Assembly: GCA_945860385.1 (NCBI GenBank)
Contig: CAMAQD010000005.1
Span: 83,682-147,681, forward strand
Reading direction: 5' to 3'
DNA from: Flavobacterium psychrophilum
GTDB lineage: Bacteria > Bacteroidota > Bacteroidia > Flavobacteriales > Flavobacteriaceae
DNA: 64,000 bases
The translations under genes and the position numbers were made by a program. Positions 3,411-20,560 of this stretch are shown in pieces; the stretch's first letter is position 1, and every line of letters begins with the position of its first letter. Below the pieces are notes generated by a model, which made no database searches, had not been told where the DNA came from, and was given only the letters and a program-made list of their open reading frames with translations.

Positions 3411-3812
3411 ATGAAAAAATTAATATTACCAATGTTATTTGCAGGAATGTTAGTTACAGTTTCTTGTAAAAAAGACGGTTCAGAAGAATCCTTTGGCAAA
3501 CCCGAAACAACAGAGGCAACAACCGAAGGTCAAAAACCTGAGGATTTGGGCAAAGAAATTTTTAACGGGAAAGGTGCTTGTATTGCTTGCCATAAACCCG
3601 ATGTAAAACTCGTTGGGCCAAGTTTACAGGACATAGCCAAAATCTATAAAGAAAAAAATGGAAATATGGTAACTTTCCTTAAAGGCGAAGGAGAACCCAT
3701 TGTTGACCCAACGCAATATGCGCTGATGAAACCTAATTTTGTCATAACAAAGACCTTTTCAGATGAAGAATTGAAAGCTTTGGAGGCTTATGTTTATTCC
3801 CATTTGAAATAA
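3411..3812 (+). CDS. c-type cytochrome lipoprotein
   Basis: A 133-residue lipoprotein precursor: MKKLILPMLFAGMLVTVSC gives a lipobox cysteine at residue 19. An acidic linker follows, then a single class I cytochrome c domain with heme-attachment motif CIACH and a candidate axial methionine in ALMKPNF. It resembles small electron carriers found in flavobacteria, but the redox partner is not evident. It lies directly behind hemB, a sensible pairing because the protein needs heme. A strong hairpin follows about 100 bases downstream. Confidence 0.9.
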   Translation: MKKLILPMLFAGMLVTVSCKKDGSEESFGKPETTEATTEGQKPEDLGKEIFNGKGACIACHKPDVKLVGPSLQDIAKIYKEKNGNMVTFLKGEGEPIVDPTQYALMKPNFVITKTFSDEELKALEAYVYSHLK

Positions 3813-3831: not shown

Positions 3832-3909
3832 AGGAGCTATTTCCTGCTGTCCACTATATCTTTTGTGGCGAACACCGCCACAAAAGGATGCCGTTTCCAT
3901 CAGGGCTAA
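3832..3909. repeat. composite intergenic inverted repeat, short copy (conserved ends AGGAGCTA...GGGCTAA)
   Basis: A 78-base element starts AGGAGCTATTTCCTGCTGTCC and ends TTTCCATCAGGGCTAA. Its middle is a perfect 11-bp stem, CTTTTGTGGCG (3860-3870) against CGCCACAAAAG (3876-3886), with a 5-base loop. The copy at 20348-20493 has the same ends but a completely different, longer arm. See the finding. Confidence 0.7.
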
Positions 3910-3910
3910 A

Positions 3911-3940
3911 AAAACCATTTCAGTCGAGATGGTTTTGTTT
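3911..3940 (+). terminator. rho-independent terminator after the hemB-cytochrome unit
   Basis: AAAACCAT (3911-3918) pairs with ATGGTTTT (3929-3936) and is followed by GTTTTTT. It sits directly after the intergenic repeat and would end the heme-block transcript. Confidence 0.65.
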
Positions 3941-3954
3941 TTTAACAAATCTTT

Positions 3955-3990
3955 CTTTGCGAACTTTGTGCCTTCTTTGTGAACTTTGTG
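3955..3990 (+). repeat. degenerate tandem repeat, unit CTTTGTGAACTTTGTG-like
   Basis: The run CTTTGCGAACTTTGTGCC then CTTTGTGAACTTTGTG is two imperfect copies of one unit. Related copies lie upstream of dinB (57366-57403) and, inverted, after the fumarase gene (8724-8741). TTTG tetramers inside it could serve as the -33 element for ogt. Confidence 0.6.
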
Positions 3991-4001
3991 GTTAATTTTT
4001 T

Positions 4002-4009
4002 TACTTTTA
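4002..4009 (+). promoter_or_regulatory. candidate -7 box of ogt
   Basis: TACTTTTA is one base off the Bacteroidota consensus TAnnTTTG and ends 4 bases before the ATG, so the transcript would be nearly leaderless. Confidence 0.4.
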
Positions 4010-4013
4010 TAAT

Positions 4014-4484
4014 ATGGAAACCACTTACATCAAAACGGCTTTAGGAATTGCCAAAATAATAGGCGATGAAGAAGGTATTTCAGTTATTTCAGTATCCGAT
4101 GAAGGCGAAATTTCAGATTCTATTCCAAAAGTTTTGCAAGAAGCCGTTTCGCAACTCAACGACTATTTCGAGGGAAAAGGAACTGATTTCACTTTCAAAT
4201 TAAATCCATCTGGAACCGAATTTCAACAAAAAGTTTGGAAAGGGTTACTAGAAATTCCTTTCGGAAAAACAATATCTTATATGGAACTATCCAAGAAATT
4301 GGGAGATGTCAAAGCCATTCGAGCCGTGGCTTCGGCCAATGGGAAAAATCCGCTTTGGATTGTAGTTCCTTGTCACAGAGTCATTGGAACCGATGGTTCC
4401 CTAACCGGTTATGCTGGCGGATTGTGGCGAAAAAAGTGGTTGCTTGAACACGAAAACCCTACAAATCAAGTTAGTTTATTTTAG
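4014..4484 (+). CDS. ogt: methylated-DNA--protein-cysteine methyltransferase
   Basis: This suicide repair protein transfers the alkyl group from O6-alkylguanine to its own cysteine. The acceptor motif PCHRVIG is present, followed by the usual glycine-rich YAGGLWRKKWLLEHE end. The DNA-binding helix region is FGKTISYMELSKKLG. At 156 residues it is the short form without an Ada regulatory domain. It has its own candidate promoter just before the ATG, and the next gene (an exonuclease) is also nucleic-acid related. Confidence 0.95.
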   Translation: METTYIKTALGIAKIIGDEEGISVISVSDEGEISDSIPKVLQEAVSQLNDYFEGKGTDFTFKLNPSGTEFQQKVWKGLLEIPFGKTISYMELSKKLGDVKAIRAVASANGKNPLWIVVPCHRVIGTDGSLTGYAGGLWRKKWLLEHENPTNQVSLF

Positions 4485-4594
4485 GGAATGCAGAAATTGC
4501 ACGAATTTTCATTGATTTAAATTTAATTGCAAACAAAATTTGACTAAATTTAGAACTTCAAAAGTTTTTGAAATTTGTATTTAAATAAATCTTT

Positions 4595-5308
4595 ATGATA
4601 GAAAAAATCAACCTCAACAACATTCTGTTTCTTGACATCGAAACTGTTCCAGAAGTAGCTGATTTCAATTCTTTGGATGACGAAATGAAAGCACTTTGGG
4701 AACACAAAACCCAATACCAACGCAAAGACGAATACACCGCAGAGGATTTTTATGAACGAGCCGGAATTTGGGCAGAGTTCGGAAAAATTGTCTGCATTTC
4801 TGTGGGTTATTTTACTATCAAAGGGGATATTCGAAATTTTAGAGTGACATCCTTTTTTGGAGAAGAAAAGAAAATTCTTTACGATTTTATCAATCTTTTG
4901 AACAATCATTTCAATCAACCGCAACATGTTTTGTGTGGTCATAATGCCAAGGAATTCGACATTCCGTTTATTGCCCGCCGAATGATTATTAATAATATTG
5001 CCATTCCTAACAAGCTTAATTTATTTGGAAAAAAACCATGGGAAATTCCGCATCTCGACACTTTAGAATTGTGGAAGTTTGGTGATTATAAACATTTTAC
5101 TTCCTTGAAATTAATGTGTAAAGTGCTCGGAATTCCTTCCCCAAAAGGCGATATCGACGGCAGTCAAGTAGGTCACGTTTTTTATGTGGACAAGGACATT
5201 GACAGAATTGTGACCTATTGTGAAAAAGACACTATCGCCGTGGCGCAGATTTTCTTGCGTTTGCGACGGGAAGATTTGTTGATTGAAGAGGAAATTATTC
5301 ACGTTTAA
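4595..5308 (+). CDS. PolB-like DEDD-superfamily 3'-5' exonuclease
   Basis: A 237-residue predicted 3'-5' exonuclease with all three Exo motifs: Exo I FLDIETVPE (residues about 12-20), Exo II CGHNAKEFDIPFIARR, and Exo III YCEKDTIAVAQIF with tyrosine and aspartate correctly spaced. The motif set fits the stand-alone PolB-type exonucleases (DNA_pol_B_exo2-like) common in Bacteroidota. There is no polymerase domain. Substrate and partners are unknown; a proofreading or repair role is inferred from the fold and from lying next to ogt. Confidence 0.85.
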   Translation: MIEKINLNNILFLDIETVPEVADFNSLDDEMKALWEHKTQYQRKDEYTAEDFYERAGIWAEFGKIVCISVGYFTIKGDIRNFRVTSFFGEEKKILYDFINLLNNHFNQPQHVLCGHNAKEFDIPFIARRMIINNIAIPNKLNLFGKKPWEIPHLDTLELWKFGDYKHFTSLKLMCKVLGIPSPKGDIDGSQVGHVFYVDKDIDRIVTYCEKDTIAVAQIFLRLRREDLLIEEEIIHV

Positions 5309-5379
5309 AATTCTTTATTGACATCGGAATTGCTATTTGAGATTGCAATTGATTTATTACATTTACAAAAAAACAGATT

Positions 5380-6819
5380 ATGGTATTGAGCAGATTTTGG
5401 TTGGTAATTTTTATTTCTTCAATTGTATTTGTGATTTTCAGCTTATTTTCTGGTAACAGTTATACAATTGACAATGTTTTAAACGGAAAAAAAGACGATC
5501 CTATTCTGATTTCTGAAAAATATATGGATCAGATTCCTGCTTTTATAAAAGATAGCATCAATAAATCCGAAGACAAAACCTTTATTATCAACAGAGATAC
5601 ACTAAATGCCGACACTAGTTATGTGTATAAAAACAAAGTAGTGAAAATTTTTAGCGGTGTTCAAAAATCGGATGGTTTATTGCCCACTTGCAAAAGCACA
5701 TTACTTGATTTAATTCTGCCCCTTATGGCTTATTTGGCTTTTTTCTGTGGCTTGATGGAGCTTTTAATTATTTCTGGAGCCTCTGGAAAATTGGCTAAAG
5801 TATTGAGTCCCGTTTTTGTAAAAGTGTTTCCAAGTATTCCCAAAAATCATCCCTCAATTTCCTATATGACCTTAAACTTTTCTGCCAATTTCTTAGGATT
5901 GGATTCAGCTGCGACACCTTTTGGATTAAAAGCTATGGAAAGTTTGCAAGAACTAAATCCCGACAAAGATCGAGCAAGTGATGCTCAAATTATGTTTATG
6001 TGTTTGCACGCTTCGGGGCTAACTTTAATAGCAACTTCCATCATTGGCTATCGTGCTGCTGCTAATGCCAGCAATCCTGCCGATGTGATGTTACCTTGTA
6101 TAATAACTTCTTTTATTGGTACAATTGCAGCTTTTCTGATTGTTGGAATTAAACAAAAAATTAATTTCAAAAGCGCTTCTTTAGTTATCGGATTAATGGT
6201 CTTAATTGCTGCTATTGTTGGTTTGTTGATGTATGTAAATCATCTGGATTTAATTGGCAAAAACTATTTTACCTCCAATCTTTCGGCCTTAATATTGGTG
6301 GGAATTATTGTTTTTACTTTGATCTTTTCGTTTATCAAAGAGAAAAAATTCACAGAAGCCAATACGACTGTTTATGAAACCTTTGTGACAGGCGCCAATA
6401 ATGGAGTGAAAACCGGAGTGACCATTTTTCCTTATGTTTTGGGAATGTTGGTGGCCATTTCTTTATTCAGAAACAGTGGTTTGTTTGAAATTATTAGCAA
6501 TTGGATTGCTTTTGCTTTTTCGAATATGGGAGTAAGCAAAGAAATCACGGATGCTTTACCAGTAGCCATGCTACGACCTTTCAGTTCTGCGGGATCAAGA
6601 GGATTTTTGATAGATTCAATGAATACTTTTGGCGCCGATTCCATGACAGGAAGGTTAAGCAGTATTTTTCAATGTAGCGCGGAAAGTACTTTTTATGTGA
6701 TTGCGGTTTACTTTGGTTCTGTTAATATAAAAAACACCAGATATGCTTTGGGAACGATGCTTATAGTTGACTTGATTTGTGTGATCACAGCAATTTTTGT
6801 GGCGAGTTGGTTTTTTTAG
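5380..6819 (+). CDS. fused SpmA/SpmB-type nucleoside-recognition (Gate) membrane protein
   Basis: A 479-residue polytopic inner-membrane protein. The N-terminal part carries an SpmA-like half (LDSAATPFGLKAMESLQELNP; MCLHASGLTLIATSIIGYRA) and the C-terminal part an SpmB-like half (VTIFPYVLGMLVAISLFRNSG; MLRPFSSAGSRGF; STFYVIAVYFGSV). In Bacillus these are two separate spore-maturation proteins; here they are one chain. A non-lipidic extracytoplasmic insert of about 70 residues follows the first membrane segment. These Gate-family proteins are transporter-like with unknown substrate. Sporulation is not implied. Confidence 0.85.
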   Translation: MVLSRFWLVIFISSIVFVIFSLFSGNSYTIDNVLNGKKDDPILISEKYMDQIPAFIKDSINKSEDKTFIINRDTLNADTSYVYKNKVVKIFSGVQKSDGLLPTCKSTLLDLILPLMAYLAFFCGLMELLIISGASGKLAKVLSPVFVKVFPSIPKNHPSISYMTLNFSANFLGLDSAATPFGLKAMESLQELNPDKDRASDAQIMFMCLHASGLTLIATSIIGYRAAANASNPADVMLPCIITSFIGTIAAFLIVGIKQKINFKSASLVIGLMVLIAAIVGLLMYVNHLDLIGKNYFTSNLSALILVGIIVFTLIFSFIKEKKFTEANTTVYETFVTGANNGVKTGVTIFPYVLGMLVAISLFRNSGLFEIISNWIAFAFSNMGVSKEITDALPVAMLRPFSSAGSRGFLIDSMNTFGADSMTGRLSSIFQCSAESTFYVIAVYFGSVNIKNTRYALGTMLIVDLICVITAIFVASWFF

Positions 6820-6831
6820 AACTAAAAATTT

Positions 6832-7002
6832 ATGAGTCGTTTATTCAGAAAGTTAATTTTTTTGTGGGTTGGTAACATTTCTATGTGGTTTTATTATGGA
6901 GGTAATAAGAAGATGGAAGATGTTGCCAAAGACGATAATGAGATTCTAGGAATAGTGGTAACATTAATTTTGGGGTTTCTAATTTATTTTTCTTTTAAAT
7001 AA
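6832..7002 (+). CDS. small two-segment membrane protein, hypothetical
   Basis: A 56-codon frame starts MSRLFRKLIFLWVGNISMWF and ends VTLILGFLIYFSFK. It has a hydrophobic N-terminal stretch, a charged middle (KKMEDVAKDDNE) and a second hydrophobic stretch. It begins 12 bases after the SpmA/B fusion stop, in the same direction, which favours a real co-transcribed gene. No family is recognised. It could be a small accessory subunit of the preceding transporter-like protein, but that is only positional inference. Confidence 0.5.
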   Translation: MSRLFRKLIFLWVGNISMWFYYGGNKKMEDVAKDDNEILGIVVTLILGFLIYFSFK

Positions 7003-7041
7003 TTTATAACAATTCTAAAACAGAAGGTGAGATAAATCAGG

Positions 7042-7070
7042 TTTTGTTCCTTCTACAATTCTTATATTTG
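7042..7070 (+). promoter_or_regulatory. promoter of the fumarase gene
   Basis: A -33 TTTG (7042-7045) and -7 box TATATTTG (7063-7070) are separated by 17 bases, matching the Bacteroidota sigma-ABfr-type consensus. The ATG is 21 bases downstream of the box. Confidence 0.65.
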
Positions 7071-7091
7071 AAGTTCTAAAAAAAACTCACT

Positions 7092-8693
7092 ATGGACTTT
7101 ATATACCAGGATCCTTATCCAATTTTAAAAGACGATACCCAATATCGTAAAATCACTTCCGATTTTGTAAAAACAGAAAAATTAGGCGATAGAGAAATCT
7201 TGACCGTAGACCCAAAAGGTTTGGAATTGTTGGCTCAAGAAGCCTTGAAAGACGTTTCTTTTATGTTGAGAACTGCTCATCTAGAAAAGCTAAGAGCCAT
7301 TCTTGACGATCCCGAAGCGACAGACAACGACCGTTTTGTGGCTTACAATTTGTTGCAAAATGCAGTTGTGGCTATCGAAGGTGAATTGCCTTCTTGTCAA
7401 GACACCGGAACGGCGATTGTAATGGCCAAAAAAGGTGAAAATGTATATACGGGAGTCGATGATGCCGAATGGCTTTCAAAAGGTATTTTCAATACTTATC
7501 AAGAAAGAAATCTTCGGTATTCCCAAATTGTACCCATCAGTATGTTCGAAGAAAAAAACTCAGGTTCGAATCTTCCGGCGCAGATTGATATTTATGCCAA
7601 AAAAGGAGCTACTTATGAGTTCTTGTTTTTAGCAAAAGGCGGTGGCTCTGCCAATAAAACCTATTTGTACCAACAAACGAAATCGCTATTGAATGAAAAA
7701 TCAATGGACGCTTTTATTCGTGCTAAAATTATGGACTTGGGAACTTCAGCTTGTCCACCGTATCACCTGGCTTTAGTGATTGGAGGAACTTCAGCGGAAG
7801 CTAATTTGGCTACGGTTAAAAAAGCATCAGCGGGATATTTCGACCATTTGCCAACATCAGGAAATATGGCTGGTCAGGCTTTCCGTGATTTAGAATGTGA
7901 GAAAAGAGTTCAGCTAATCTGTCAACAAAGTGCTATTGGAGCACAATTTGGCGGTAAATATTTTACCCACGATGTCCGTGTAATTCGTTTGCCACGTCAC
8001 GCGGCTTCTTGTCCGGTTGGATTGGGAGTCTCCTGTTCGGCTGATAGAAATATAAAAGGAAAAATTACCAAAGACGGTATTTTTGTAGAGCAATTGGAAG
8101 TAAATCCAAAACGTTTGTTGCCAGAAACAGCACCACATTTGGAGCCTGCTGTCGAAATTGATTTGAACCAACCAATGGCTGAAATTCTTAAAAAATTGTC
8201 ACAATACCCAATCAAAACGCGTTTGAAACTAAACGGAACTTTGATTGTAGCCCGAGATATTGCCCACGCTAAAATCAAGGAATTATTGGATGCCGGTAAA
8301 CCAATGCCGGAATACTTCAAAAATCACCCAATCTATTATGCAGGACCTGCAAAAACACCGGAAGGAATGGCTTCGGGGAGTTTTGGACCGACAACGGCAG
8401 GTAGAATGGATGTTTACGTAGAGGAATTCCAAAAAAATGGCGGAAGTATGGTAATGCTTGCCAAAGGAAACAGAACCAAAGAAGTAAAAGACGCTTGTCA
8501 AAAATATGGTGGATTCTATTTGGGTTCCATTGGAGGGCCAGCAGCTATTTTGGCAAAAGAAAATATCCTTTCAGTCGAGATTGTTGATTTTGAAGAATTA
8601 GGAATGGAAGCTGTTCGTAAAATTACTATTAAAGATTTTCCGGCTTTTATTATCACGGATGATAAAGGAAATGATTTCTTTGAGAATTTGTAA
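7092..8693 (+). CDS. class I (iron-sulfur) fumarate hydratase
   Basis: This 533-residue enzyme interconverts fumarate and malate in the TCA cycle. Class I features are seen: [16 protein letters not shown] around the first cluster cysteine, [20 protein letters not shown], and [14 protein letters not shown] with further cysteines. The C-terminal beta domain contains [15 protein letters not shown] and [12 protein letters not shown]- and C-terminal (alpha/beta) parts are fused in one chain, as in E. coli FumA/FumB. A canonical promoter precedes it and a terminator follows, so it is probably monocistronic. Oxygen sensitivity is expected for this class. Confidence 0.95.
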
Positions 8694-8723
8694 AGTTTAA
8701 CAGAAAAGAACGCATTGTCTTTT

Positions 8724-8741
8724 CGCAAAGTTCGCAAAGTT
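8724..8741 (-). repeat. inverted copy of the CTTTGCGAACTTTGCG repeat
   Basis: CGCAAAGTTCGCAAAGTT is the reverse complement of the unit seen upstream of ogt and dinB. Here it lies just downstream of the fumarase stop, before the terminator. Confidence 0.5.
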
Positions 8742-8752
8742 TTATAATAACT

Positions 8753-8777
8753 AAACCGCCTTAATTGGGCGGTTTTT
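8753..8777 (+). terminator. terminator of the fumarase gene
   Basis: AAACCGCC (8753-8760) pairs with GGCGGTTT (8768-8775) across a 7-base loop and runs into a T tract. Confidence 0.85.
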
Positions 8778-8865
8778 GTTTTTTGAGATCTCTTTCAGAA
8801 AGCTTTATGGCAGTTTTTGAGTAGTTTTAGCCTTTCAAAGGCTTCAAGCTTTCGAGGTGATAATT

Positions 8866-9522
8866 CTAATTTTTCAAATCTTTAATTACTTTAAAAGCCA
8901 CATCTACTTCATCTTCGCTAACCAAAATAGTAAATTCGTTTGAAGTTGAAATTACTTCGTTAATGATGATTCCTTCCCAAGCCAAACGCTGGAAAATGAA
9001 ATAATAAATACCAGGAACCACTATGTTTTCTTTGGGTAATTTTACCGTAATCGAAGCCAGGTTTTCCAGTTTTTGAATTAATTTTTCGTTTACAAAATGC
9101 TTGTCAACAAGATGATTGACGCTATTGCTAACTACAATATTGGTTTCATTTACACCTCTTGATGATGTATAAAATATATCTGAAAAACTGTTGATGTCGG
9201 TAATTAAATCGGCCTGTTTGTTCAAGACAGTGTCCGAAGCTGCAAAAGTATAATCCGTCAATGAGGAGCGAACCGTGATTTCGCCAATGTTTTTTATAAC
9301 CTTATTAATTTTGTGATTGAGCCTAAAATCCAATTCTTCGGTGAGTCTTTTCAGCGCCATTACAACTGCACCTTGTTTGACTTCTTTGCCAAATTCAGAC
9401 TCCAATTCGACCATAATATTTCTGGACAATGAAGTCAAATTGATGATGCCTAGAGATAAAGCATTCAACAAAAATGGCTTTGTTTTGATGTAATTTTCTA
9501 CAATAGAAGAAACAGTTTTCAT
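8866..9522 (-). CDS. ACT-domain-like protein of unknown function
   Basis: A 218-residue cytoplasmic protein with no signal or membrane segment. The C-terminal third (KLENLASITVKLPKEN..., then QRLAWEGIIINEVISTSNEFTILVSEDE) reads like an ACT domain of the aspartokinase kind: beta strands around a helix with the 'GI.I..I.TS..E.S.LV' pattern. The N-terminal part is helical and may be winged-helix-like (NYIKTKPFLLNALSLGIINLTSLSRNIM). No catalytic domain is visible. A ligand-sensing role is possible but not shown. A canonical promoter lies about 100 bases upstream. Confidence 0.6.
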   Translation of the reverse strand: MKTVSSIVENYIKTKPFLLNALSLGIINLTSLSRNIMVELESEFGKEVKQGAVVMALKRLTEELDFRLNHKINKVIKNIGEITVRSSLTDYTFAASDTVLNKQADLITDINSFSDIFYTSSRGVNETNIVVSNSVNHLVDKHFVNEKLIQKLENLASITVKLPKENIVVPGIYYFIFQRLAWEGIIINEVISTSNEFTILVSEDEVDVAFKVIKDLKN

Positions 9523-9622
9523 TTTTTAGTTGTGTTAATTTTTAAGGAAATCACCGTTTTAATTAGGAAGATTTAAAATATTAAAGCTGTAATTCCTTAG
9601 ATTGTTGTTTGTAAACCGTTTG

Positions 9623-9654
9623 CAAATATAAATAAAAAAACAATTTGTTACAAA
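9623..9654 (-). promoter_or_regulatory. promoter of the ACT-like gene
   Basis: On the minus strand a TTTG (9651-9654) and TATATTTG (9623-9630) are 20 bases apart, giving a leader of about 100 bases before the ATG at 9522. Confidence 0.55.
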
Positions 9655-9674
9655 TCAAACAATAATAAATTTGG

Positions 9675-10034
9675 TTAAAAATGATAAAATGCATCAACTA
9701 GGTGTTCGATGACTAAAGATTTGCCTTCTTTGTGAACCGCAATAATATCAAAGCGCACCTCTATATCCAAATCATTTTTCACAACATACTCGTTTACGGC
9801 TTTAACCAAAAGCTGAATTTTCTTTGGTTTTACAAAGTCTTGAGGCAAACCAAAATCGAGTGAGGAGCGGGTTTTTACTTCAATAATGGCGAGAGTATTT
9901 TCTTTTTTGGCAATAATGTCGACTTCGGCTTTCTGGAAAGTCCAGTTCGTTTCCAGAATTTCATAACCGTTTTTCTGAAGGAATTCAACCGCCATTTCTT
10001 CTCCTAATTTTCCTAAATCGTTGTGTTCGGCCAT
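9675..10034 (-). CDS. yraN: YraN/UPF0102-family endonuclease-fold protein
   Basis: A 119-residue protein of normal family length. It has a PD-(D/E)xK-like core: LGEEMAVEFLQKNGYEILETNW, then EVDIIAKKENTLAIIEVKTRSS, in which Asp, Glu-x-Lys and the preceding Glu are the likely metal-binding set. The family is widespread and predicted to be a Holliday-junction-resolvase-like nuclease, but its cellular role is not settled. The next gene on the same strand is an LD-carboxypeptidase. Confidence 0.92.
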   Translation of the reverse strand: MAEHNDLGKLGEEMAVEFLQKNGYEILETNWTFQKAEVDIIAKKENTLAIIEVKTRSSLDFGLPQDFVKPKKIQLLVKAVNEYVVKNDLDIEVRFDIIAVHKEGKSLVIEHLVDAFYHF

Positions 10035-10037
10035 TTT

Positions 10038-10062
10038 AAAGTTAGAAGTTTCAAGTTAGAAG
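10038..10062. repeat. degenerate GTTAGAAGT-type intergenic repeat
   Basis: AAAGTTAGAAGTTTCAAGTTAGAAG contains two copies of a roughly 13-base unit. Its reverse complement (AACTTCTAACTT) is the unit of the repeat before pheS at 36837-36870. Confidence 0.5.
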
Positions 10063-10090
10063 CAGGAATCGTAAAGTTTGAAATTATTGG

Positions 10091-11092
10091 TTATTCAAAT
10101 ATTAGTTTTGAGGTTGTTGTGTTTAATTCCAATGAAACTTGTTTGCCAAAAATTAAGGCTCGGTTGTCTCGAAAATGACCTGCAGGAAAATTATAAAGCA
10201 CAGGAAACGAATATTCTTCGGTCACATCTTCGATAATTTGGTTGGCATTTTTCCCCCAAGGAATGTCGTTGTCTTTCATTTTGCTCATAGTGCCAACGAT
10301 TAAACCATTTAAATCCTCAAAGCAACCGCAACGTTTCAGGCTCATCATCATTCGGTCGATGTGGTACAAATATTCGTCTAAGTCTTCGATGAAAAGTATT
10401 TTTCCTTTGCAATCTATTTGTGCATTGGAACCCATAAGGCTGTATAAAATGGATAAATTCCCGCCCACAATTTCACCTTTGGCATTGCCAAGTCGGTTTG
10501 CAGCATCAAAGGGAATTTCATAATTCAGGCTTTCGCCAAAAAGGGATTGCCGCAAACTTTCTATCGATTCTGTGCTAGCTTTTCCAACTGTTATTGGCAT
10601 TGCTCCGTGAATAGTGGCAATATTTAAGTTGTTTATATAACTGTGAATTACGGTCACGTCGCTGAAGCCAACAATCCATTTTGGACTTTTTTTGAATTTT
10701 GTAAAATCTAATAAATCAATCATTCGAACCGTGCCATAACCACCACGCACACACCAAATGGCTTTGATATTTGGATTGTCTAATTGTTGCTGAAAATCCG
10801 CCGCTCGCTCCGCATCAGTTCCTGCCAATTGATTGTTGTCTAATCCAATAGTTTTACCAATTAGAACTTCAAGTCCCCAACTGTGCAATAAATCTATAGC
10901 CGGTTTCAAGTTATCGTCGATGTTTTTGCGAGCTGTACATACAATCGCTATTGTGTCTCCTTTTTGTAAACTTGGTGGAATTTTCATTGGTATTTGGGCT
11001 TGAATGTTGGAAAATGAAAAAACAAAAATAAGTATAAGAAGTCTATAAAAAACAGCGTTACCATTTATAAACAAAAATTGAATAGTACGCAT
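10091..11092 (-). CDS. LD-carboxypeptidase (peptidase S66), possibly exported
   Basis: S66 peptidases release the terminal D-Ala from murein tetrapeptides during peptidoglycan recycling. Visible landmarks are CVRGGYGTVRMIDLLDF, the nucleophile region GFSDVTVIHSYI, the catalytic Glu region LFIEDLDEYLYHIDRM and the catalytic His in FPAGHFRDNRAL. The 333-residue frame begins with about 33 extra residues containing a hydrophobic run (YRLLILIFVFSFSNIQAQ) that looks like a signal peptide. A shorter cytoplasmic form could start at the Met of MKIPPSLQKGD. Most characterised LdcA enzymes are cytoplasmic. Confidence 0.9.
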   Translation of the reverse strand: MRTIQFLFINGNAVFYRLLILIFVFSFSNIQAQIPMKIPPSLQKGDTIAIVCTARKNIDDNLKPAIDLLHSWGLEVLIGKTIGLDNNQLAGTDAERAADFQQQLDNPNIKAIWCVRGGYGTVRMIDLLDFTKFKKSPKWIVGFSDVTVIHSYINNLNIATIHGAMPITVGKASTESIESLRQSLFGESLNYEIPFDAANRLGNAKGEIVGGNLSILYSLMGSNAQIDCKGKILFIEDLDEYLYHIDRMMMSLKRCGCFEDLNGLIVGTMSKMKDNDIPWGKNANQIIEDVTEEYSFPVLYNFPAGHFRDNRALIFGKQVSLELNTTTSKLIFE

Positions 11093-11172
11093 ATTTATAA
11101 AATGTAAATTATTTTATTCTTTATTTTTCATGATGAATCTAATACAAATATATTTTTTTATTGTGAAGTAGC

Positions 11173-13137: not shown

Positions 13138-13240
13138 TGGAATAGTTTAGTTAAAGATTACAAATTTAGGGATTAAATGAGTTTGTTATTGTTATGCTTT
13201 CTTAATTTTTTAGGTTGTTTTTCCGTAAAGAAGTATAATA

Positions 13241-13272
13241 AAAAAGGCCTCCGTGAATGTGGAAGCCTTTTT
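13241..13272 (-). terminator. terminator between the DUF5689 gene and the nuclease gene
   Basis: AAAAAGGC (13241-13248) pairs with GCCTTTTT (13265-13272), with TCC/GGA pairs inside. On the minus strand it ends in a T run, so it would at least attenuate read-through into the nuclease gene. Confidence 0.7.
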
Positions 13273-13291
13273 GAATTATTCTTTTAAAAAA

Positions 13292-14701
13292 TTAATTTAC
13301 GATTATATTATCTAATTGTAAGGTTGTAGTAAGCGCTGGAAAAGCGTTTGCATTTCCGGCATATTCAAATACAAAATATCCATTTCCGGTTACAGTTGCT
13401 GGAATGGCATAATTGCCACTTGCTACAAAAGTAGTTCCATAGCCAGAAGTAGGCGTTGTAGGAATAGTGAAATTGGAAGTGATATTGGTCATTTTTGTAA
13501 CATCTATTTTTCCACCTGCTGTATAATCAGCAGCGAGAACATAATATACTTTTAATACGGCTCCATTCCAGAATCCCATATTGGATCTAAATGAAAAAGC
13601 ACTTGCAGTAGTCATATTTACAGGGACAAATAAATAAGTATTGTTTGCTCCGCCTGAACCAAATGAAGTCATTTGGATGTATTTGTTTGAGCTAAAAGTT
13701 TTTACTTCCCAATATCTTGAACCAATTGCCGCATCATTGATATAATTTGGAAAATTAGTTTGTGACGGTGAAGAAACATAACTTTCGAAAGTTTCGTTTA
13801 CGGTTGCTGGGAAAACGGTAGAATTTGTACCAACAAGCGCAGGAGTATAATCTACCCTTGGATTTGGCATATCGACGTCGCGTTCGGTTCTCATTATAAT
13901 TTGAAAAGTAGAATTATATTTAGTCAATACACCTCTAATTTTTCCTTTACCTGTAGGAACTTTTTGACCAGCAAAATTCGCAAATCGGCTAGTTCTAATG
14001 GTTAATGTTTTTGCTCCGTCTGTTATATAAATACTGGAGTCAAAATCATCTGTTCTGTTCGAATCAAAGGTTCCACCAGCAGCTTCATCGGTAAATTGAA
14101 CATTGTCAATTTCGACTAAAGTATTCAAATAAGCATCAGCTACTTGAGCTAAAGTGATTTTGCGAACAATTGCATCTTCGCTTACTGCATCACATGAAGC
14201 AATGAGGTGTTTAGGATATTCTAGAGTAGGAAGTCTATCAACAGCATATTGTTCTGTTGGTGGAGCACCAAAAATTAATCCTACTCCAAAACTTGTTGGG
14301 TTTGCATAAGCTAAACCTTTCATTTTTAGAAACACTTTTTTTCCAGGCTGAAGGTTTTTGGCATAAAGATTTACTTCGTCGATCGAAAGATTAAATCCTT
14401 TTGAACCATCTACAGCTTGAAAATACATGCTTTTATAAAAATTCCCACCTTCGTCGCTAGAAACCACATAAGCTTCTATAATATCGTCGGTGGTATAAGT
14501 TGGTGTATTGGGAATTACGCTTGGTGGAGTTGCCACAGGATTTTTAGCGATTGTATAAATATCGGCAATTGTTTTGGTTTTGGTTAAACCCGGATTTACA
14601 CAGTCGCCAAATTGTGGAGTATCGTAAGTATCATTTACGCAACCAGAAAACAATCCGATTGATAGTACAACGATGAAGCTATTTTTAAATATATTTTTCA
14701 T
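13292..14701 (-). CDS. DUF5689-type surface lipoprotein
   Basis: A 469-residue lipoprotein: MKNIFKNSFIVVLSIGLFSGC ends in a lipobox cysteine at residue 21. The first half (IADIYTIAKN..., IIEAYVVSSDEGGNFYKSMYFQ, then NLQPGKKVFLKMKGLAY) has the OB-like pattern I associate with DUF5689. The second half (about 285-469) resembles a beta-sandwich binding domain (YWEVKTFSSNKYIQMTSFGSG). It lies 11 bases after the TonB receptor on the same strand. By analogy with SusC/SusD pairs, it could be the receptor's surface partner; there is no SusD homologue here. That role is inference. Confidence 0.82.
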   Translation of the reverse strand: MKNIFKNSFIVVLSIGLFSGCVNDTYDTPQFGDCVNPGLTKTKTIADIYTIAKNPVATPPSVIPNTPTYTTDDIIEAYVVSSDEGGNFYKSMYFQAVDGSKGFNLSIDEVNLYAKNLQPGKKVFLKMKGLAYANPTSFGVGLIFGAPPTEQYAVDRLPTLEYPKHLIASCDAVSEDAIVRKITLAQVADAYLNTLVEIDNVQFTDEAAGGTFDSNRTDDFDSSIYITDGAKTLTIRTSRFANFAGQKVPTGKGKIRGVLTKYNSTFQIIMRTERDVDMPNPRVDYTPALVGTNSTVFPATVNETFESYVSSPSQTNFPNYINDAAIGSRYWEVKTFSSNKYIQMTSFGSGGANNTYLFVPVNMTTASAFSFRSNMGFWNGAVLKVYYVLAADYTAGGKIDVTKMTNITSNFTIPTTPTSGYGTTFVASGNYAIPATVTGNGYFVFEYAGNANAFPALTTTLQLDNIIVN

Positions 14702-14712
14702 AAGGCTAATTC

Positions 14713-17472
14713 TTAAAAGTTTAAATAAACATTTACCATAAATGTTCTTCCGTATCCATAGAAATATTTTGGACCAAAAGAGCGAGTTGGCCCTTGATGA
14801 TCTTTATATAATTCGCTATACGAAGCGTTTCTTGCTTGCTCGAATCCGCCCGTTTTGTATTGAATGTCGAATACATTGTTGACATTGGCAAACAATCCTA
14901 AAGTTTTTTCTTTTATTCTCCAAGTTTTTCCTCCTACAAGATTAACAAGCGTGAAAGAATTGAATTTTTCTTGAGCCAAATAACTAGCTGCTGTTGCTGC
15001 ATCATAAGGAAAATTGGCCTCATCAGAATTTGTAATGAATTGTGATGTTCTAATTAGCGGCGCAACATCTAAATAATTATTAGACAAATAATTTACGTTG
15101 GCACTAATCCACCAAAATTTTGGATCACGATATTCTAGTCCTGCAGAATAGGCTTGTTGCGGCATTCCAGCTTGTTTATACCCTTCCATAGTGGCCTCGC
15201 CATTAAAAACATCTCCTACAGCTCCATCCGCTTTTATTACTAAATTTGGATTGTTGGTATAAGTGTATTCACCAAAAGCTGCTACTGCGGTGGCTTTGAT
15301 AGTAGAAGTTAATTGGTATTCTAAACCAGCTTCTAATCCTTTATTTCTTTTATTTTGACCAGAAACCACTTCCGAAACAAATTCGCCGTTTCCTACGCTA
15401 ATATTATCGGCATAATAAAATGAAATGTCGGTAGTGTTTTCGGTTTCATTGAAGTAAGCTGTAAAACGAGCTTTAAAACTTGGCATTCTGATGATATAAC
15501 TAGCATCAACACTTTTTATAGTTTCGTTTTTAATATCTTCAGTTGTAGCATTATTTAAACGAGCATTTGGAAAAACATCTTTGTGATTCGGGGCTTTTGT
15601 CATATATACTCCATTAAAATCTAGGAAATGTTGTCCTGTCAATTTATAAGTTGCTCCTCCTTTGAAACCAAAGTTGTCAAAGTTTAATTTTTCGCTTTTT
15701 CCAAATGAATTTTCTGGATAGTACCCGTTTTTGTATAAACCTTCTCTTTGATAGCTGCTTCTGGAAAAAGATTGTCCTAGATAAAAATCTACTTTATCAT
15801 AAGTAAATTTAAACTGGGTGAAAGCATCAATTCTAGTGGCATTTACATCATAATTATATCCATATTTGTCTCCAACACTAACAATTCTGTCTTGATTATT
15901 CAAATCAGAATGTTCTTCTCCTGGCAAAGTGCCAAAAGTGTTGATGTCATTATAAAAAGTTCCTCCTAATAAATCAATCAAATTTTTGAAATTGGATGAT
16001 TTTAATTTTGTAAAACTTCCTCCAGCATTCATCACGATATTATCGGCTAATTGAGAAGAAAGAATGGTATTGGCTACCATAGTTTTGTCATCGGTTCGGT
16101 CTTCGTATAAAACATAACGACTTCCGTTGGATAGGTTTTCATTGTTGATGCGATACATAGCTGTCCAATCCATTTGTGGATTAGCAAGAAAATTGGCTTT
16201 AACCTCTTCCGCAGCGGCAAAATCTGGAGTGTAAGTTGCTACATTGTTGCTGTACGAATACAGGGTAGTGTAATAACTTGGCAATTTTTTATAGTAATTT
16301 GGGTCAGGATTATCAGCTTTTTGAAAATCAACGCGGCTGTTTCCTATTTCTCCAAATTGGTATGAAAGATTGGTGTGAAGTTTAGTTTTAGAATTGAATT
16401 TCCAATAATGGCTTAATGTAAAGATAGGTTCTTCAACATCTTTTACTCTCGAATTTCTTTTCTCACCTTCTTGGTCACCCCAATACGAATTGTATTTAAA
16501 ATCTTTTAAATCGGTAACCTCTTGTGTATTAGGAGAATTTTTACCTCTTCGATTTTGAGCATAAATGGAAGTAAAGTTAATGCTATGATGGTCGTTTATT
16601 TTCTTTTCAATACTGGCAAACAAAGAGTTGGCGGCATAATCAGTTCCGTCAAAATAACCTTCTTGAGCCCATCTTCTACCACCAGAAACCACATAAGCCC
16701 AGCCGTTTTTGTCCATACCCGAGGCATAAGTTGCCATAGCTCTGTAACTGTAATTGGTGTTGGTTCCCAAGAATGAAATTCGTGATCCAGGTCGGTAAAT
16801 CGACGCTCTTGTCGAGATGTATTGGGTCCCTGCAACTCCCCCAAAAGTATAATCGGAAGGGGCAGAACCATTGGTAAATTCCTGATTTCGGGTGGCATCA
16901 TTTAATCCTCCCCAGTTGCTGTATTGCGGTCTTCCGTCAGACAATCGGTTCATTGAAACACCATTGATAAGGATATTCGAATATTCATTGTCTATACCAC
17001 GAACACTGAATCGGGCTTGTCCAAAATTGTAGGCTGCTGCCTGTAAAAAAATATCTTTCGAGGCTTGAAGTAATCCGGCAGTACTTTCGGAACCGCTATT
17101 GTCGTCGCTCAAATCATTATCGGTAATAGTTATCAAAGATAGCTGTTGCTCAGTTGTAATATCTTCTTCTAGAGTAACTGTGCCTAAATCTATTAATTGT
17201 CCTTCTGTAATTTCAGCTTGAAGCAATTGATCTTTGTATCCGATTGTTCGAATGCGTATTAATTGATTTCCAACTTCTACTTTGTCAAAAGCAAATTTTC
17301 CATTTGAATCTGTAAGTTGGGTTAAGTTTGTGTTTTGAACGGATACAATAACACTTTGCATTGGTTTTTGTGTTTTGGAATCGACGACTTTACCAGTAAA
17401 CCCGGTATTTGTTTGTCCAAAAGCAACCATTATTTGCAAGACAAATAACGCACTAAAAATAAAGTTTTTCAT
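14713..17472 (-). CDS. TonB-dependent outer-membrane receptor of the nuclease locus
   Basis: A 919-residue receptor. It has a signal peptide (MKNFIFSALFVLQIMVAFGQ), a carboxypeptidase-regulatory-like domain (about 22-95, TGFTGKVVDSKTQKPMQSV), a plug (about 125-235) with FSVRGIDNEYSNILINGVSMN and a long barrel ending in aromatic FMVNVYLNF. It imports an unidentified ligand using TonB energy. Its neighbours are a surface lipoprotein, a secreted endonuclease I and a divergent exported EEP nuclease, which suggests nucleic-acid fragments, nucleotides or released phosphate as substrate. That is contextual inference. Confidence 0.92.
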   Translation of the reverse strand: MKNFIFSALFVLQIMVAFGQTNTGFTGKVVDSKTQKPMQSVIVSVQNTNLTQLTDSNGKFAFDKVEVGNQLIRIRTIGYKDQLLQAEITEGQLIDLGTVTLEEDITTEQQLSLITITDNDLSDDNSGSESTAGLLQASKDIFLQAAAYNFGQARFSVRGIDNEYSNILINGVSMNRLSDGRPQYSNWGGLNDATRNQEFTNGSAPSDYTFGGVAGTQYISTRASIYRPGSRISFLGTNTNYSYRAMATYASGMDKNGWAYVVSGGRRWAQEGYFDGTDYAANSLFASIEKKINDHHSINFTSIYAQNRRGKNSPNTQEVTDLKDFKYNSYWGDQEGEKRNSRVKDVEEPIFTLSHYWKFNSKTKLHTNLSYQFGEIGNSRVDFQKADNPDPNYYKKLPSYYTTLYSYSNNVATYTPDFAAAEEVKANFLANPQMDWTAMYRINNENLSNGSRYVLYEDRTDDKTMVANTILSSQLADNIVMNAGGSFTKLKSSNFKNLIDLLGGTFYNDINTFGTLPGEEHSDLNNQDRIVSVGDKYGYNYDVNATRIDAFTQFKFTYDKVDFYLGQSFSRSSYQREGLYKNGYYPENSFGKSEKLNFDNFGFKGGATYKLTGQHFLDFNGVYMTKAPNHKDVFPNARLNNATTEDIKNETIKSVDASYIIRMPSFKARFTAYFNETENTTDISFYYADNISVGNGEFVSEVVSGQNKRNKGLEAGLEYQLTSTIKATAVAAFGEYTYTNNPNLVIKADGAVGDVFNGEATMEGYKQAGMPQQAYSAGLEYRDPKFWWISANVNYLSNNYLDVAPLIRTSQFITNSDEANFPYDAATAASYLAQEKFNSFTLVNLVGGKTWRIKEKTLGLFANVNNVFDIQYKTGGFEQARNASYSELYKDHQGPTRSFGPKYFYGYGRTFMVNVYLNF

Positions 17473-17523
17473 AAAGGTGATAAATTAATTCATATTGATA
17501 AGAAATAATAATTCTTAACGGTA

Positions 17524-17559
17524 CAAAGCTACATTTATAATTTTTATTATCTACTTTTG
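17524..17559. promoter_or_regulatory. divergent promoter pair between the TonB receptor and EEP nuclease genes
   Basis: A minus-strand -7 box TAGCTTTG (17524-17531) serves the TonB receptor and a plus-strand box TACTTTTG (17552-17559) serves the EEP nuclease. Only 20 bases separate them. A regulator bound here could control both arms at once. Confidence 0.55.
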
Positions 17560-17603
17560 TTGCTAAGTTTTTGTTAAATTTCACATTAAAATAATATCCC
17601 GTT

Positions 17604-18707
17604 ATGAGAATAAAAAAGGTAATTGCCATTTTGTTTGTTATATCTTCAATTTTTGGAGTCAATGCGCAACAAAAAAAATATGCTTTACGTACCGTTGCGT
17701 TTTATAATTTCGAAAATTTATTCGATACTATAAACAATCCAAATAATGATGAGGAATGGACACCAAAAGGACTTCAGCGTTGGACTTCATCAAAATACAA
17801 GCAAAAATTAGAAAACCTGTCGACAGTTTTAATGCAAATTGGCACGAATGACAAACAAAAAGAAGCACCAACTTTTATTGGAGCTTCTGAAATTGAAAAC
17901 CGAAATGTTCTCGAGGATTTAGTCAAACAATCCAATATTATTAAATATGATTACGGAATCGTACATTTTGATTCACCTGATAAAAGAGGAATTGATGTAG
18001 CCCTGTTGTATCAAAAGAAATATTTCAAACCTACAAGTTTCATCAACATTCCTTTGATAATTTATAGAGGGAATAGTAACGAAAAAGAGAAAGAAACTGA
18101 AGAAGAAAAATTAGACAAAGACAAAATAGAAACTTCTTATGACAACAGAGTTTACACCAGAGATATTCTCTTAGTAACCGGTTTTCTTGACGGAGAGGAA
18201 ATTAATATTATGGTCAATCATTGGCCCTCACGTTCAGGTGGTGAGAAAAAAAGCAGTCCATTTCGCGAAGCTGCAGGAAGATTGGCCAGAAAAACGATGG
18301 ATTCTATTTATAAAGTAAATCCCAATGCCAAAATTATTTTGATGGGAGATTTGAATGATGGAACTTACAACAAAAGCGTGAAAGTTGGAGTTGGAGCTAA
18401 ATTAAAAAAATCGGAAGTGCAACAATTTGGCGTTTACAATCCTTTCGAACAAATGTTTAAAGATGGAAATTCCACCTTGTTTTATAGAGATTCTGGAGAT
18501 ATTTTTGATCAAATCATGGTTTCAGAAACTTTGATAAAAGAGGATCGATCCACCTATCAATATTGGAAAGCAGGAATTTACAACAAGCCGTTTATGATCG
18601 AAAAATTTGGACGATATGCAGGCTATCCTTTACGACATTCGGAAAACGAAATAGGCTATAGCGACCACTTTCCGGTTTATATTTATTTGGTCAAAGAAGT
18701 TAAATAA
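17604..18707 (+). CDS. exported endonuclease/exonuclease/phosphatase (EEP) family protein
   Basis: A 367-residue protein with a signal peptide (KVIAILFVISSIFGVNAQ). The EEP fold is indicated by AFYNFENLFDTIN, the catalytic Glu in FIGASEIENRNVL, NIMVNHWPSRSGGE with Asn-His, IILMGDLNDG (Asp and Asn of the active site) and the C-terminal IGYSDHFPVYIYL (Asp-His). All catalytic positions look intact. Members cut DNA, RNA or phosphoesters; the exported form here would act in the periplasm or outside. It is divergent from the TonB receptor and followed at 15 bases by a small secreted protein. Confidence 0.92.
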   Translation: MRIKKVIAILFVISSIFGVNAQQKKYALRTVAFYNFENLFDTINNPNNDEEWTPKGLQRWTSSKYKQKLENLSTVLMQIGTNDKQKEAPTFIGASEIENRNVLEDLVKQSNIIKYDYGIVHFDSPDKRGIDVALLYQKKYFKPTSFINIPLIIYRGNSNEKEKETEEEKLDKDKIETSYDNRVYTRDILLVTGFLDGEEINIMVNHWPSRSGGEKKSSPFREAAGRLARKTMDSIYKVNPNAKIILMGDLNDGTYNKSVKVGVGAKLKKSEVQQFGVYNPFEQMFKDGNSTLFYRDSGDIFDQIMVSETLIKEDRSTYQYWKAGIYNKPFMIEKFGRYAGYPLRHSENEIGYSDHFPVYIYLVKEVK

Positions 18708-18722
18708 TTTAAAATTAATAAA

Positions 18723-19088
18723 ATGAAAAATATTCTATTCGTTTTCCTTGTAACATTTTCAATACATTGTTTTGCACAAGATACTATTACAACCACTAAA
18801 GTCAATGATTATATGGACAAAGAAGTTTGTGTACTAGGTAAAGTAGTCTCGTTTAAACTTGCTAGCGAGGGAAAATTTACCAATTACATCAACATCGACA
18901 AACCCTATCCAGAAAGTGTTTTTACGGTGGTAATTACTAACAATTATCTCGAAAAACTAAACATCAAAATCGAAGATTTGAAAGACAAAACCATATATAT
19001 AAAAGGTAAAATCACTACTTATAAAAACGACCCAAAACAAATTCCGCAAATTTTCAATCCGATAAGTATTGTGGTAAAAAAGGAGTGA
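18723..19088 (+). CDS. small secreted OB-fold-like protein
   Basis: A 121-residue exported protein with signal peptide MKNILFVFLVTFSIHCFAQ. The mature part (VNDYMDKEVCVLGKVVSFKLA ... YINIDKPYPESVFTVVI ... IEDLKDKTIYIKGKITTY) follows the strand order of small OB-fold domains: a 'V.G.V' first strand, a central 'IN.....P...F' and a closing 'I.VKG.I' strand. OB folds often bind nucleic acid, fitting its position directly after the EEP nuclease, but binding is not demonstrated. It is likely co-transcribed with that nuclease. Confidence 0.65.
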   Translation: MKNILFVFLVTFSIHCFAQDTITTTKVNDYMDKEVCVLGKVVSFKLASEGKFTNYINIDKPYPESVFTVVITNNYLEKLNIKIEDLKDKTIYIKGKITTYKNDPKQIPQIFNPISIVVKKE

Positions 19089-19412
19089 TTTTTTGTTTTC
19101 AAGTCACAAACATTTAAAATCACTAAGATAGTTGGATTAGTAAGGAATCTCCCTAAGCTTAATTTCCATCACTATTTTAATGGTTTTTAAAACCGAAGTT
19201 TTGTAGATTTCGAGTATACATTATTTTCAAAAACAATCAGGCATTTTAAATTAAGAAAGAATTAAGATTTTTATCTGTTTAAAACAATACTTTTGCCAAA
19301 AATTAAATTTTAGCATCCACAATGGACGATTATTATTCGAAGAGAACAAAATACAAACTGGAATAGTCGTTGCCTAATGTAAGCGATTTTCCTCAACACC
19401 TCGCATTGCATT
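19089..19412. other. 324-base intergenic region with the corA promoter
   Basis: The only signal I can support is a -7 box TACTTTTG at 19288-19295, giving a leader of roughly 110 bases before corA. No convincing coding frame is seen. I could not identify a known Mg-sensing leader structure, though a leader this long before corA leaves room for one. Confidence 0.45.
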
Positions 19413-20339
19413 ATGATTACGTATTACAAAAACAACAAAGGTTTAATCCAAACCGAAAATCGTGAAGAAAACTCCTGGATTAATGTAGTTTGTCCAACAA
19501 AAGAAGAAACCAGATTCCTGCTTAAAGAACTCCAAATTCCCGAAGATTTTTATAGCGATATCGAAGATATTGACGAACGACCTCGTATCGAAATCGAAAA
19601 CGGCTGGACGCTTATAATTCTACGAATTCCTTTCAAAAGCGAGGATCCAAAACTGCCGTTTAACACAGCACCACTAGGATTAATGTTTAAAAAAGATATT
19701 TTTATTTCGCTTTGTTTTCATCAAACCGACATCCTTTCTGATTTTGTTTTATATACCAAACGCAAGAAAATTTCAATCGAAAATGACTTCGATTTAGTAT
19801 TAAAATTACTGCTTTCCTCAAGCATTTGGTTCTTGAAATACCTAAAACAAATCAACCAAAGAATCAAACTTGCCGAAGACAACCTCGAAGAATCCATCAA
19901 AAACGAAGAGCTTCAAGCCCTGTGGCAAATAGAAAAATGTTTAGTCTTTTTTGTAACTTCACTGAAAGGCAATGATGTTTTATTCCGAAGAATCAAAAAT
20001 TTAAAAGCCCATCAAGACACTTACGACCCCGAATTGCTCGAAGATGTCGAAATCGAATTACGCCAAGCCGAGGAAACCACCAATATTTACAGCAACATCC
20101 TTACCGGGATGATGGATGCGTATGCCTCAGTAATTTCAAATAACTTAAACGTCATAATGAAAAGGCTCACATCCATATCGATTATTTTGATGATTCCCAC
20201 CGTAATCGCCAGTTTATACGGAATGAATGTACCCAATAATTTTCAGGAAAACCCTTATGGATTTTGGTTGGTATTGTCCATTTCGCTTATAGTTTCGGTT
20301 TTCGGAGTGTTATTGTTCAAGAAAAAAAATATGTTTTAG
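19413..20339 (+). CDS. corA: CorA-family divalent-metal (Mg2+/Co2+) transporter
   Basis: A 308-residue CorA-type channel. The large cytoplasmic N-terminal domain is followed by two C-terminal membrane segments; the signature YGMNVP sits at the end of TM1 (LTSISIILMIPTVIASLYGMN), and TM2 is FWLVLSISLIVSVFGVLLFKKK. The family forms pentamers that admit Mg2+ or Co2+ down the membrane potential. It has its own promoter and a long leader. A composite inverted repeat follows 8 bases after the stop. Confidence 0.93.
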   Translation: MITYYKNNKGLIQTENREENSWINVVCPTKEETRFLLKELQIPEDFYSDIEDIDERPRIEIENGWTLIILRIPFKSEDPKLPFNTAPLGLMFKKDIFISLCFHQTDILSDFVLYTKRKKISIENDFDLVLKLLLSSSIWFLKYLKQINQRIKLAEDNLEESIKNEELQALWQIEKCLVFFVTSLKGNDVLFRRIKNLKAHQDTYDPELLEDVEIELRQAEETTNIYSNILTGMMDAYASVISNNLNVIMKRLTSISIILMIPTVIASLYGMNVPNNFQENPYGFWLVLSISLIVSVFGVLLFKKKNMF

Positions 20340-20347
20340 ATTTTTTC

Positions 20348-20493
20348 AGGAGCTAATCCCGCTTTCCGTTAAAATCTTGTTCCATAAAGGCTATTTTTCT
20401 AAGCCAAAAAAGGAGCTTCCGCTGGTCGCTCTTTTTAGGCAAGAAAAAATTAGCCTTTCTTGTAACAAGGATTTCCACTTCACTCGGGGCTAA
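20348..20493. repeat. composite intergenic inverted repeat, long copy with nested arm
   Basis: This 146-base element begins AGGAGCTAATCCCGCTTTCC and ends GGATTTCCACTTCACTCGGGGCTAA, the same boundary motifs as at 3832-3909. The arms pair in layers: ATCTTGTT with AACAAGGAT, AAAGGCTA with TAGCCTTT, and an inner GCCAAAAAAGGAGC with GCTCTTTTTAGGC. The apex (AGGAGCTTCCGCTGGTC) repeats the head motif, as if one element were nested in another. Confidence 0.7.
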
Positions 20494-20560
20494 AAAACCT
20501 GACTACATTCTAAACCTTTAGGAAACTTTAGGTTTTCTTTACAATATCAAAGGAATACAA

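Follow-up and report, generated by a model that had tools for sequence, protein, structure and literature searches.

We analysed a 64,000-nucleotide stretch of a Flavobacterium psychrophilum genome (contig CAMAQD010000005.1, positions 83,682 to 147,681; hereafter the window), which carries two intergenic hairpin elements, and compared these with loci (L numbers) from other genomes (G numbers). Both elements are copies of Flavo-1 (RF01705), an already known family. The Flavo-1 hairpin combines locus-bound outer ends and a conserved core, made of purine internal loops and short helices that covary, with an apical arm that belongs to one of several recurring palindrome types. Many loci have kept the site and orientation of their element over the long term, while the signal of descent, still present in the adjoining intergenic DNA, is lost from the arm and inner core. 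A site that is kept while its arm changes is more easily explained by a modular DNA repeat than by an ordinary small-RNA gene, and we consider it probable that Flavo-1 is an old, high-copy, non-autonomous, modular intergenic hairpin repeat (ERIC/BOX-like) of Flavobacteriaceae, with the arm exchanged between copies.

Two copies of Flavo-1 in the window

An Rfam scan of the window matched Flavo-1 at 3836-3911 (minus strand, 81.2 bits, E 2.2e-16) and 20351-20495 (minus strand, 50.2 bits, E 7.1e-8), and no other family reached its own gathering score. Both matches exceed the Flavo-1 gathering score (42 bits) and cover all 76 model positions, and chance is excluded as the source of the two elements. 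The elements themselves span 3833-3908 and 20349-20492, are intergenic, lie on the minus strand and share the same two ends. Their middles are unrelated in sequence: the apex of the short copy is an 11-bp perfect palindrome, while the long copy has several nested stems. Fold z-scores of the window copies were -2.6 to -4.3 as RNA and -3.7 to -5.8 as DNA. The initial annotation had described two elements with common ends and unrelated, strong inverted-repeat middles, and had put forward Flavo-1 for comparison; the sequence and the Rfam scores bear out both points. Their parts are as follows.

3833..3908, minus strand: short Flavo-1 copy, 76 bp, class I ends, 11-bp apical palindrome (RF01705; own covariance model 74.0 bits)
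3899..3908, minus strand: outer 5' end TAGCCCTGAT, constant end (family columns invariant or covarying)
3886..3898, minus strand: 5' core GGAAACGGCATCC with purine internal loops, subtype without AAATCC (direct reading; 8 of 32 aligned copies are of this subtype, the window short copy included)
3861..3885, minus strand: interchangeable arm TTTTGTGGCG-GTGTT-CGCCACAAAA (direct reading; other arms at the same site in five other genomes)
3833..3860, minus strand: 3' core GATATAGTGGAC and outer 3' end AGCAGGAAATAGCTCC, constant end (sequence, family alignment)
20349..20492, minus strand: long Flavo-1 copy, 144 bp, class I ends, long-arm class (RF01705; same length class in other genomes)
20377..20468, minus strand: long interchangeable arm, nested variable stems with constant internal loops TTTTTTCTTG / TTAGAAAAA (7-copy alignment, consensus fold)
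20413..20431, minus strand: conserved apex of the long-arm class, GAGCGACCAGCGGAAGCTC (consensus GAGCGACCNNNGGAAGCTC in long copies)

Descent is visible in flanks and ends, hardly in arms

Orthologous copies were compared between G176 (59 copies) and G201 (49 of 81 copies, the best-scoring ones except for two, one beside another copy and L325, a long-arm copy). Of 27 pairs with a flank match, 21 were kept, 18 matching on both flanks and three on one (L363/L424, L370/L398 and L388/L417); the pairs dropped (L354/L395, L354/L397, L378/L424, L387/L393, L389/L395 and L389/L397) matched on one flank, with a short match or several loci matched. For the module comparison, 58 of the 59 G176 copies were split into modules, with L391 left out.

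Across the 21 pairs, identity was raised over random pairing in the 35-bp 5' flank (0.619 vs 0.571, permutation p 0.0004), the 5' end (0.864 vs 0.736, p below 0.0001), the 3' end (0.795 vs 0.684, p below 0.0001) and the 35-bp 3' flank (0.691 vs 0.580, p below 0.0001). Between them, the values were 0.721 vs 0.701 for the 5' core (p 0.30), 0.539 vs 0.497 for the arm (permutation p 0.15) and 0.737 vs 0.679 for the 3' core (permutation p 0.09). As some of the 35-bp flanks extend into genes, we repeated the test on pairs whose flank holds no open frame, and the signal stayed (5' flank, 12 pairs, 0.607 vs 0.577, p 0.033; 3' flank, 14 pairs, 0.702 vs 0.593, p below 0.0001), with p values of 0.19 (5' set) and 0.30 (3' set) for the arms of those same pairs. 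Flanks and outer ends of the orthologous pairs thus show their shared ancestry, the arm does not detectably and the inner core does so little.

A broader pool gave 72 cross-genome pairs matching on both flanks, 70 of them in the same orientation, at 32 distinct sites; this pool consists of loci fetched for carrying Flavo-1, and sites lacking the element in one genome are outside its reach. Using arm classes A to E, which are rough pattern classes with misfits included, more than one class was found at 22 of the 32 orthologous sites. Arm identity was at least 0.85 in 5/5 pairs with flanks at least 88% identical and in 7/65 less similar pairs. A clean swap is seen at the single site represented by L194, L346 and L429, where the cores are identical and the arm is GGCGGTGTTCGCC in L194 and L346 and CACGCTTTTTTTTGGCGTG in L429. 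At another orthologous site, a long arm in L322 stands opposite a short arm in L416. Arm repertoires differ between the two genomes at comparable score ranks (36 best-scoring G176 copies vs 49 G201 copies, p 0.0015), and in G176 the nearest inner sequence is closer within the genome than across (0.815 vs 0.763, p 1.3e-5).

Two of the loci pairs, L110/L361 and L085/L347, lie in opposite orientation in orthologous gaps of two genomes, by palindrome inversion or independent arrival.

Elements at individual sites

The genes upstream of the two window elements are:

3411..3812, plus strand: cytochrome c domain protein gene, upstream of the short copy (PF00034, E 2e-8)
19413..20339, plus strand: CorA-like transporter gene (corA), upstream of the long copy (PF01544, E 5e-50)

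The short copy sits between the cytochrome c gene and a methylguanine methyltransferase gene. The cytochrome gene lies upstream of the methyltransferase gene in 13 of 30 loci; four of these (L236, L237, L238 and L241) carry an element that matches the window copy in position and orientation, one (L248) carries a remnant, and eight (L231, L233, L234, L242, L246, L247, L252 and L260) have no element, some of their gaps holding another gene. In L244, an element was found upstream of the methyltransferase gene, with the cytochrome gene undetected. The five arms at this site (L236, L237, L238, L241 and L244) differ from one another and from the window arm. The long copy sits between the corA and aldehyde dehydrogenase genes and begins 9 bp past the corA stop codon. 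Among 25 loci compared behind corA, the window and L003 have a long copy, L001 has an altered long copy, and L018 and L019 have short ones; L008 and L009 retain remnants, and loci such as L002, L006, L020, L022 and L023 have nothing recognisable there. At a site from G018 (30 loci), five genomes carry the element (L201, L203, L206, L208 and L213) with five different arms, and L217 carries a remnant.

Among the sites compared, we found no precise empty site of the kind, with target duplication, that an active MITE would leave in relatives, and genomes without the element differ by more than the element. The initial annotation's reading as a non-autonomous mobile element is partly right: copy numbers indicate past spread, but many copies keep their site between species, and at a kept site it is the arm that changes.

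At the site of L174 (G017), the relatives L442-L444 have different repeat-like or spacer sequence in the gap, between matching terminator-like arms. Many G017 copies (L143-L180) are embedded in longer mosaics whose flanks recur (CTTATGAAAACGGATGCCC in front of the element and AAAGATTTGGTTTTATCATAGAAATCGGAATGACAAA after it), and the presence of near-identical copies points to recent spread in this genome. L107 and L183 of G018, 2.6 kb apart, have about 110 bp of 5' flank in common, a local duplication carrying the element.

Family size, anatomy and pairing

Flavo-1 was detected in each of 18 of 18 Flavobacterium genomes, with 5 to 147 copies, and at least 96 of 149 genomes of the family Flavobacteriaceae have a match, at least 90 of them above the cut-off; these figures are lower bounds, from up to 150 scored candidates per genome in the 18 and up to 29 per genome in the 149. 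A 76-bp query found no relatives in phage and plasmid records at E 1e-5. From 5' to 3' along the Flavo-1 strand, the element consists of a TAGCCC-N-GAT outer end, a purine-loop core with short covarying helices, ATCC, the arm, GAT, the 3' core, AGC-N-GG and TAGCTCC. Arm types recur, among them CGG-N-GTTCG palindromes, T-runs with CTTTA, a short CACGCTTTTTTGCGTG type and the long type of about 92 nt.

In an alignment of 94 copies (87 distinct), drawn largely from the best-scoring ones, 99.6% of 1726 cells are paired, with 249 cells altered on both sides and 8 G-U. The nearly complete G176 alignment (57 rows from 56 of the 59 copies, one row being a reverse-strand hit) is paired in 98.0% of 1062 cells, with 249 double changes and 26 G-U cells; shuffled alignments and slid structures pair far less. 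These values uphold the constant ends, free arm and covarying stems that had been proposed. As a control, the signal recognition particle (SRP) RNA of relatives has 68 G-U cells over 33 pairs x 25 sequences; a single invariant pair accounts for 25 of these cells. G-U cells compare with double changes as 26 vs 249 in G176 Flavo-1 and as 43 vs 108 in SRP RNA with the invariant U-G pair omitted. We had considered the G-U shortage as proof of DNA-level pairing and demoted it to support, as the nearly complete G176 set is less extreme (26/1062) than the first (8/1726).

The long-arm type comprises elements of about 144 bp with an arm of about 92 nt, found at window positions 20349-20492 and in L003, L237, L321-L325 and L391. 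Seven aligned long copies and their consensus fold have constant internal loops, the apex GAGCGACCNNNGGAAGCTC and covarying stems; L322 carries this apex with a compensated stem pair. The apex of the window long copy (GAGCTTCCGCTGGTCGCTC, 20413-20431) resembles the head motif, and it had been taken for a second element inserted in the first. This was not supported: on the other strand the apex reads GAGCGACCNNNGGAAGCTC, and long copies from other sites and other genomes have it too. We therefore rejected nesting of one element in another and regard the apex as a conserved trait of a length class.

Twelve G176 copies keep the core with a second class of outer ends, GCGT(G/T/A)AGGGAT plus AGCCCGACC or near it. 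In an Rfam scan of ten such loci and six long-arm loci, Flavo-1 was the sole match to the elements, with one of the ten (L388) scoring under the gathering threshold. Separately, L381 gave a weak stray AsrC match away from the element. A Flavo-1 core or shortened core with ends GCGTGAGGGAT...AGCCCGACC and an extra hairpin arm before GGTCACGC was observed in L367, L371, L376-L381, L386 and L388-L390, and in L446, L447 and L452; in the last three, the outer arm resembles a two-way terminator.

Orientation and gene context

Orientation relative to replication was 115:117 over the copies of seven genomes, showing no bias. This count used all listed G176 and G201 copies and the above-cut-off copies of five others (35/45, 17/21, 17/22, 12/13 and 11/12), with genome lengths rounded and the terminus taken as opposite dnaA; G088 and G115, with copies on several contigs, were left out. 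An earlier candidate, a replication-strand bias of 5:17 (p 0.017) in the 22 best-scoring G176 copies, was dropped given the seven-genome count. Between tandem genes (gene calls from a simple open-frame script), sense to antisense copies numbered 24:30 in the first set of 90 copies (p 0.50), 12:26 in G176 (p 0.034) and 11:22 in G201 (p 0.08; binomial tests), the G176 and G201 counts not being independent, as these genomes have sites in common. Divergent to convergent contexts were 11:3 in G176 and 12:2 in G201, but 11:16 in the first set. Orientation to genes is thus weakly biased or unbiased. Overall, Flavo-1 is intergenic, present in many copies and both orientations, forms a hairpin and has no gene of its own, as expected of a modular small interspersed repeat of the ERIC/BOX kind. 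The initial annotation's other reading, a structured RNA with a free arm, is borne out in the free arm and covarying pairing and is doubtful as to its RNA nature, given the many copies in either orientation to genes and replication.

Interpretation and alternative explanations

If the arm is exchanged, it would be replaced via ectopic gene conversion or template switching between copies within one genome, possibly with the conserved core halves (about 13 nt on either side) and the ends as primers. In this process the hairpin would be copied as a unit, so that stems stay paired and double changes arise with few G-U intermediates. We think that Flavo-1 is mainly a DNA-level repeat, passively transcribed, rather than a dedicated small-RNA gene. 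A bolder version, which we regard as unlikely, treats Flavo-1 loci as fixed docking sites at which a putative core-recognising machinery would actively and specifically swap the apical hairpin as a cassette, in effect a hairpin-homing system; if so, each genome would spread its own favourite arms over inherited sites, and the RNA-like covariation would be a by-product.

Several observations weigh against arm exchange in an inherited modular repeat. A rank test gives the 3' core some descent signal (p 0.027), and the arm signal is low, not proven zero, for arms that are short and of varying length. The arm is clearly kept in L363/L424 and partly in L343/L423; 26 of the 65 pairs with flanks less than 88% identical have arms of the same rough class, with A and B both common classes. 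In G201, the nearest inner sequence is hardly closer within the genome than across (0.831 vs 0.823, p 0.23). No donor-recipient pair was caught among the copies compared, and no mobilising or exchange machinery was found. The G-U comparison sets paralogs against orthologs of another family. Orthologs were met for 21 of the 59 G176 copies, among 49 of the 81 G201 copies, and some of the rest may lie at sites not kept between species. Finally, selection for some function could be the reason why core and pairing persist at many sites.

An alternative explanation takes Flavo-1 as a cis-acting RNA element of untranslated regions, whose core would be read in the mRNA by a protein or nuclease and whose arm would be free since only pairing counts. 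The strict and covarying pairing, the cores kept at orthologous sites and the short distance to the upstream gene's stop codon (at most 61 bp in 31 of 43 G176 tandem-context copies) are all consistent with it. However, both orientations occur in the same contexts, and the reverse strand is without purine loops. The Rfam strand is, if anything, antisense to tandem genes (antisense to sense 26:12 in G176, 22:11 in G201 and 30:24 in the first set), and a transcriptome study places matches sense, antisense and outside transcribed regions (PMC9723704). Free drift also explains poorly an arm with less descent signal than intergenic flanks, and we judge this explanation fairly unlikely. The same low arm signal could come from an arm that simply evolves fast by mutation, slippage and compensation under a pairing-only constraint, without any exchange between copies. 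In keeping with this, AT-rich palindromes are frequent among the arms, their descent signal is low and not proven zero (p 0.15), and a rough arm class is common to 26 of 65 distant pairs. We consider this decidedly unlikely considering that recurrent arm types are common to unrelated sites, that type and length switch outright at orthologous sites (e.g., long vs short in L322/L416), that descent signal flanks the arm on both sides and that arm repertoires differ by genome.

Movement of Flavo-1 as a REP-like element by a Y1 (RAYT) transposase would agree with its hairpin, intergenic location and high copy number, and PF01797 is present in 14 of 18 Flavobacterium genomes. Against this, PF01797 has no match at E 0.001 in G008, G013, G014 and G016 (54, 147, 65 and 5 Flavo-1 copies), genomes that are drafts or metagenome-assembled, where the gene may be missed. 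There is no replichore bias, many copies are sedentary, and the counts near the ends of 90 copies are GTAG 0, CTAC 4, CGTC 1 and GACG 2. With PF01797 absent from three copy-rich genomes and GTAG/CGTC tags practically absent, RAYT was not supported as the mobiliser, and this origin is highly improbable.

Should arms be exchanged in a modular repeat, as we favour, Flavo-1 covariation would partly record the copying of whole palindromes; therefore, for repeat families, covariation alone would not suffice to prove an RNA gene. With its long-arm class and second outer-end class, the family extends past the 76-position Rfam model. Arm exchange is directly testable by tracking arms across closely related strains.

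Comparison with known systems

Flavo-1 entered the literature in 2010 as probably an RNA, with no function given, and is listed there as 'RNA? y' and 'cis-reg? n' in Bacteroidetes (Weinberg et al, 2010; PMC2864571). Rfam types RF01705 as a small-RNA gene. In a F. psychrophilum transcriptome, Flavo-1 matches seemed to be sense or antisense of transcribed regions, with many in none, and function could not be inferred from position (PMC9723704). The window elements share the strand and core structure of RF01705 over the full model length. In contrast to its listing, the copies here have the behaviour of a dispersed repeat, and they include a long-arm class and a second class of ends (GCGTGAGGGAT...AGCCCGACC); both classes match only RF01705, although the model does not describe such arms or ends. 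The literature seen on Flavo-1 / RF01705, partly in excerpt and with most subscription-journal papers outside the search, held no description of arm exchange; as far as our searches reach, the known family gains the proposed arm exchange, a long-arm class and a second end class.

REP/REPIN elements with RAYT are likewise high-copy extragenic palindromes, but several Flavo-1-rich genomes have no PF01797 match, and the end tags are rare in Flavo-1 (GTAG 0/90, CGTC 1/90). Gene conversion was reportedly raised for REP sequences by Higgins in 1988. The ERIC elements of enterobacteria resemble Flavo-1 as long imperfect palindromes that are intergenic, present in many copies and without a known mobilising enzyme. 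ERIC differs in that it is not known to have an exchangeable arm. The likeness to BOX of Streptococcus pneumoniae is one of architecture: constant end modules (boxA and boxC) surround a variable boxB, the elements are interspersed hairpins, and size differs between strains at orthologous inserts (PMC3049150). BOX varies in the tandem number of boxB, whereas the middle of Flavo-1 appears to be swapped for a different palindrome.

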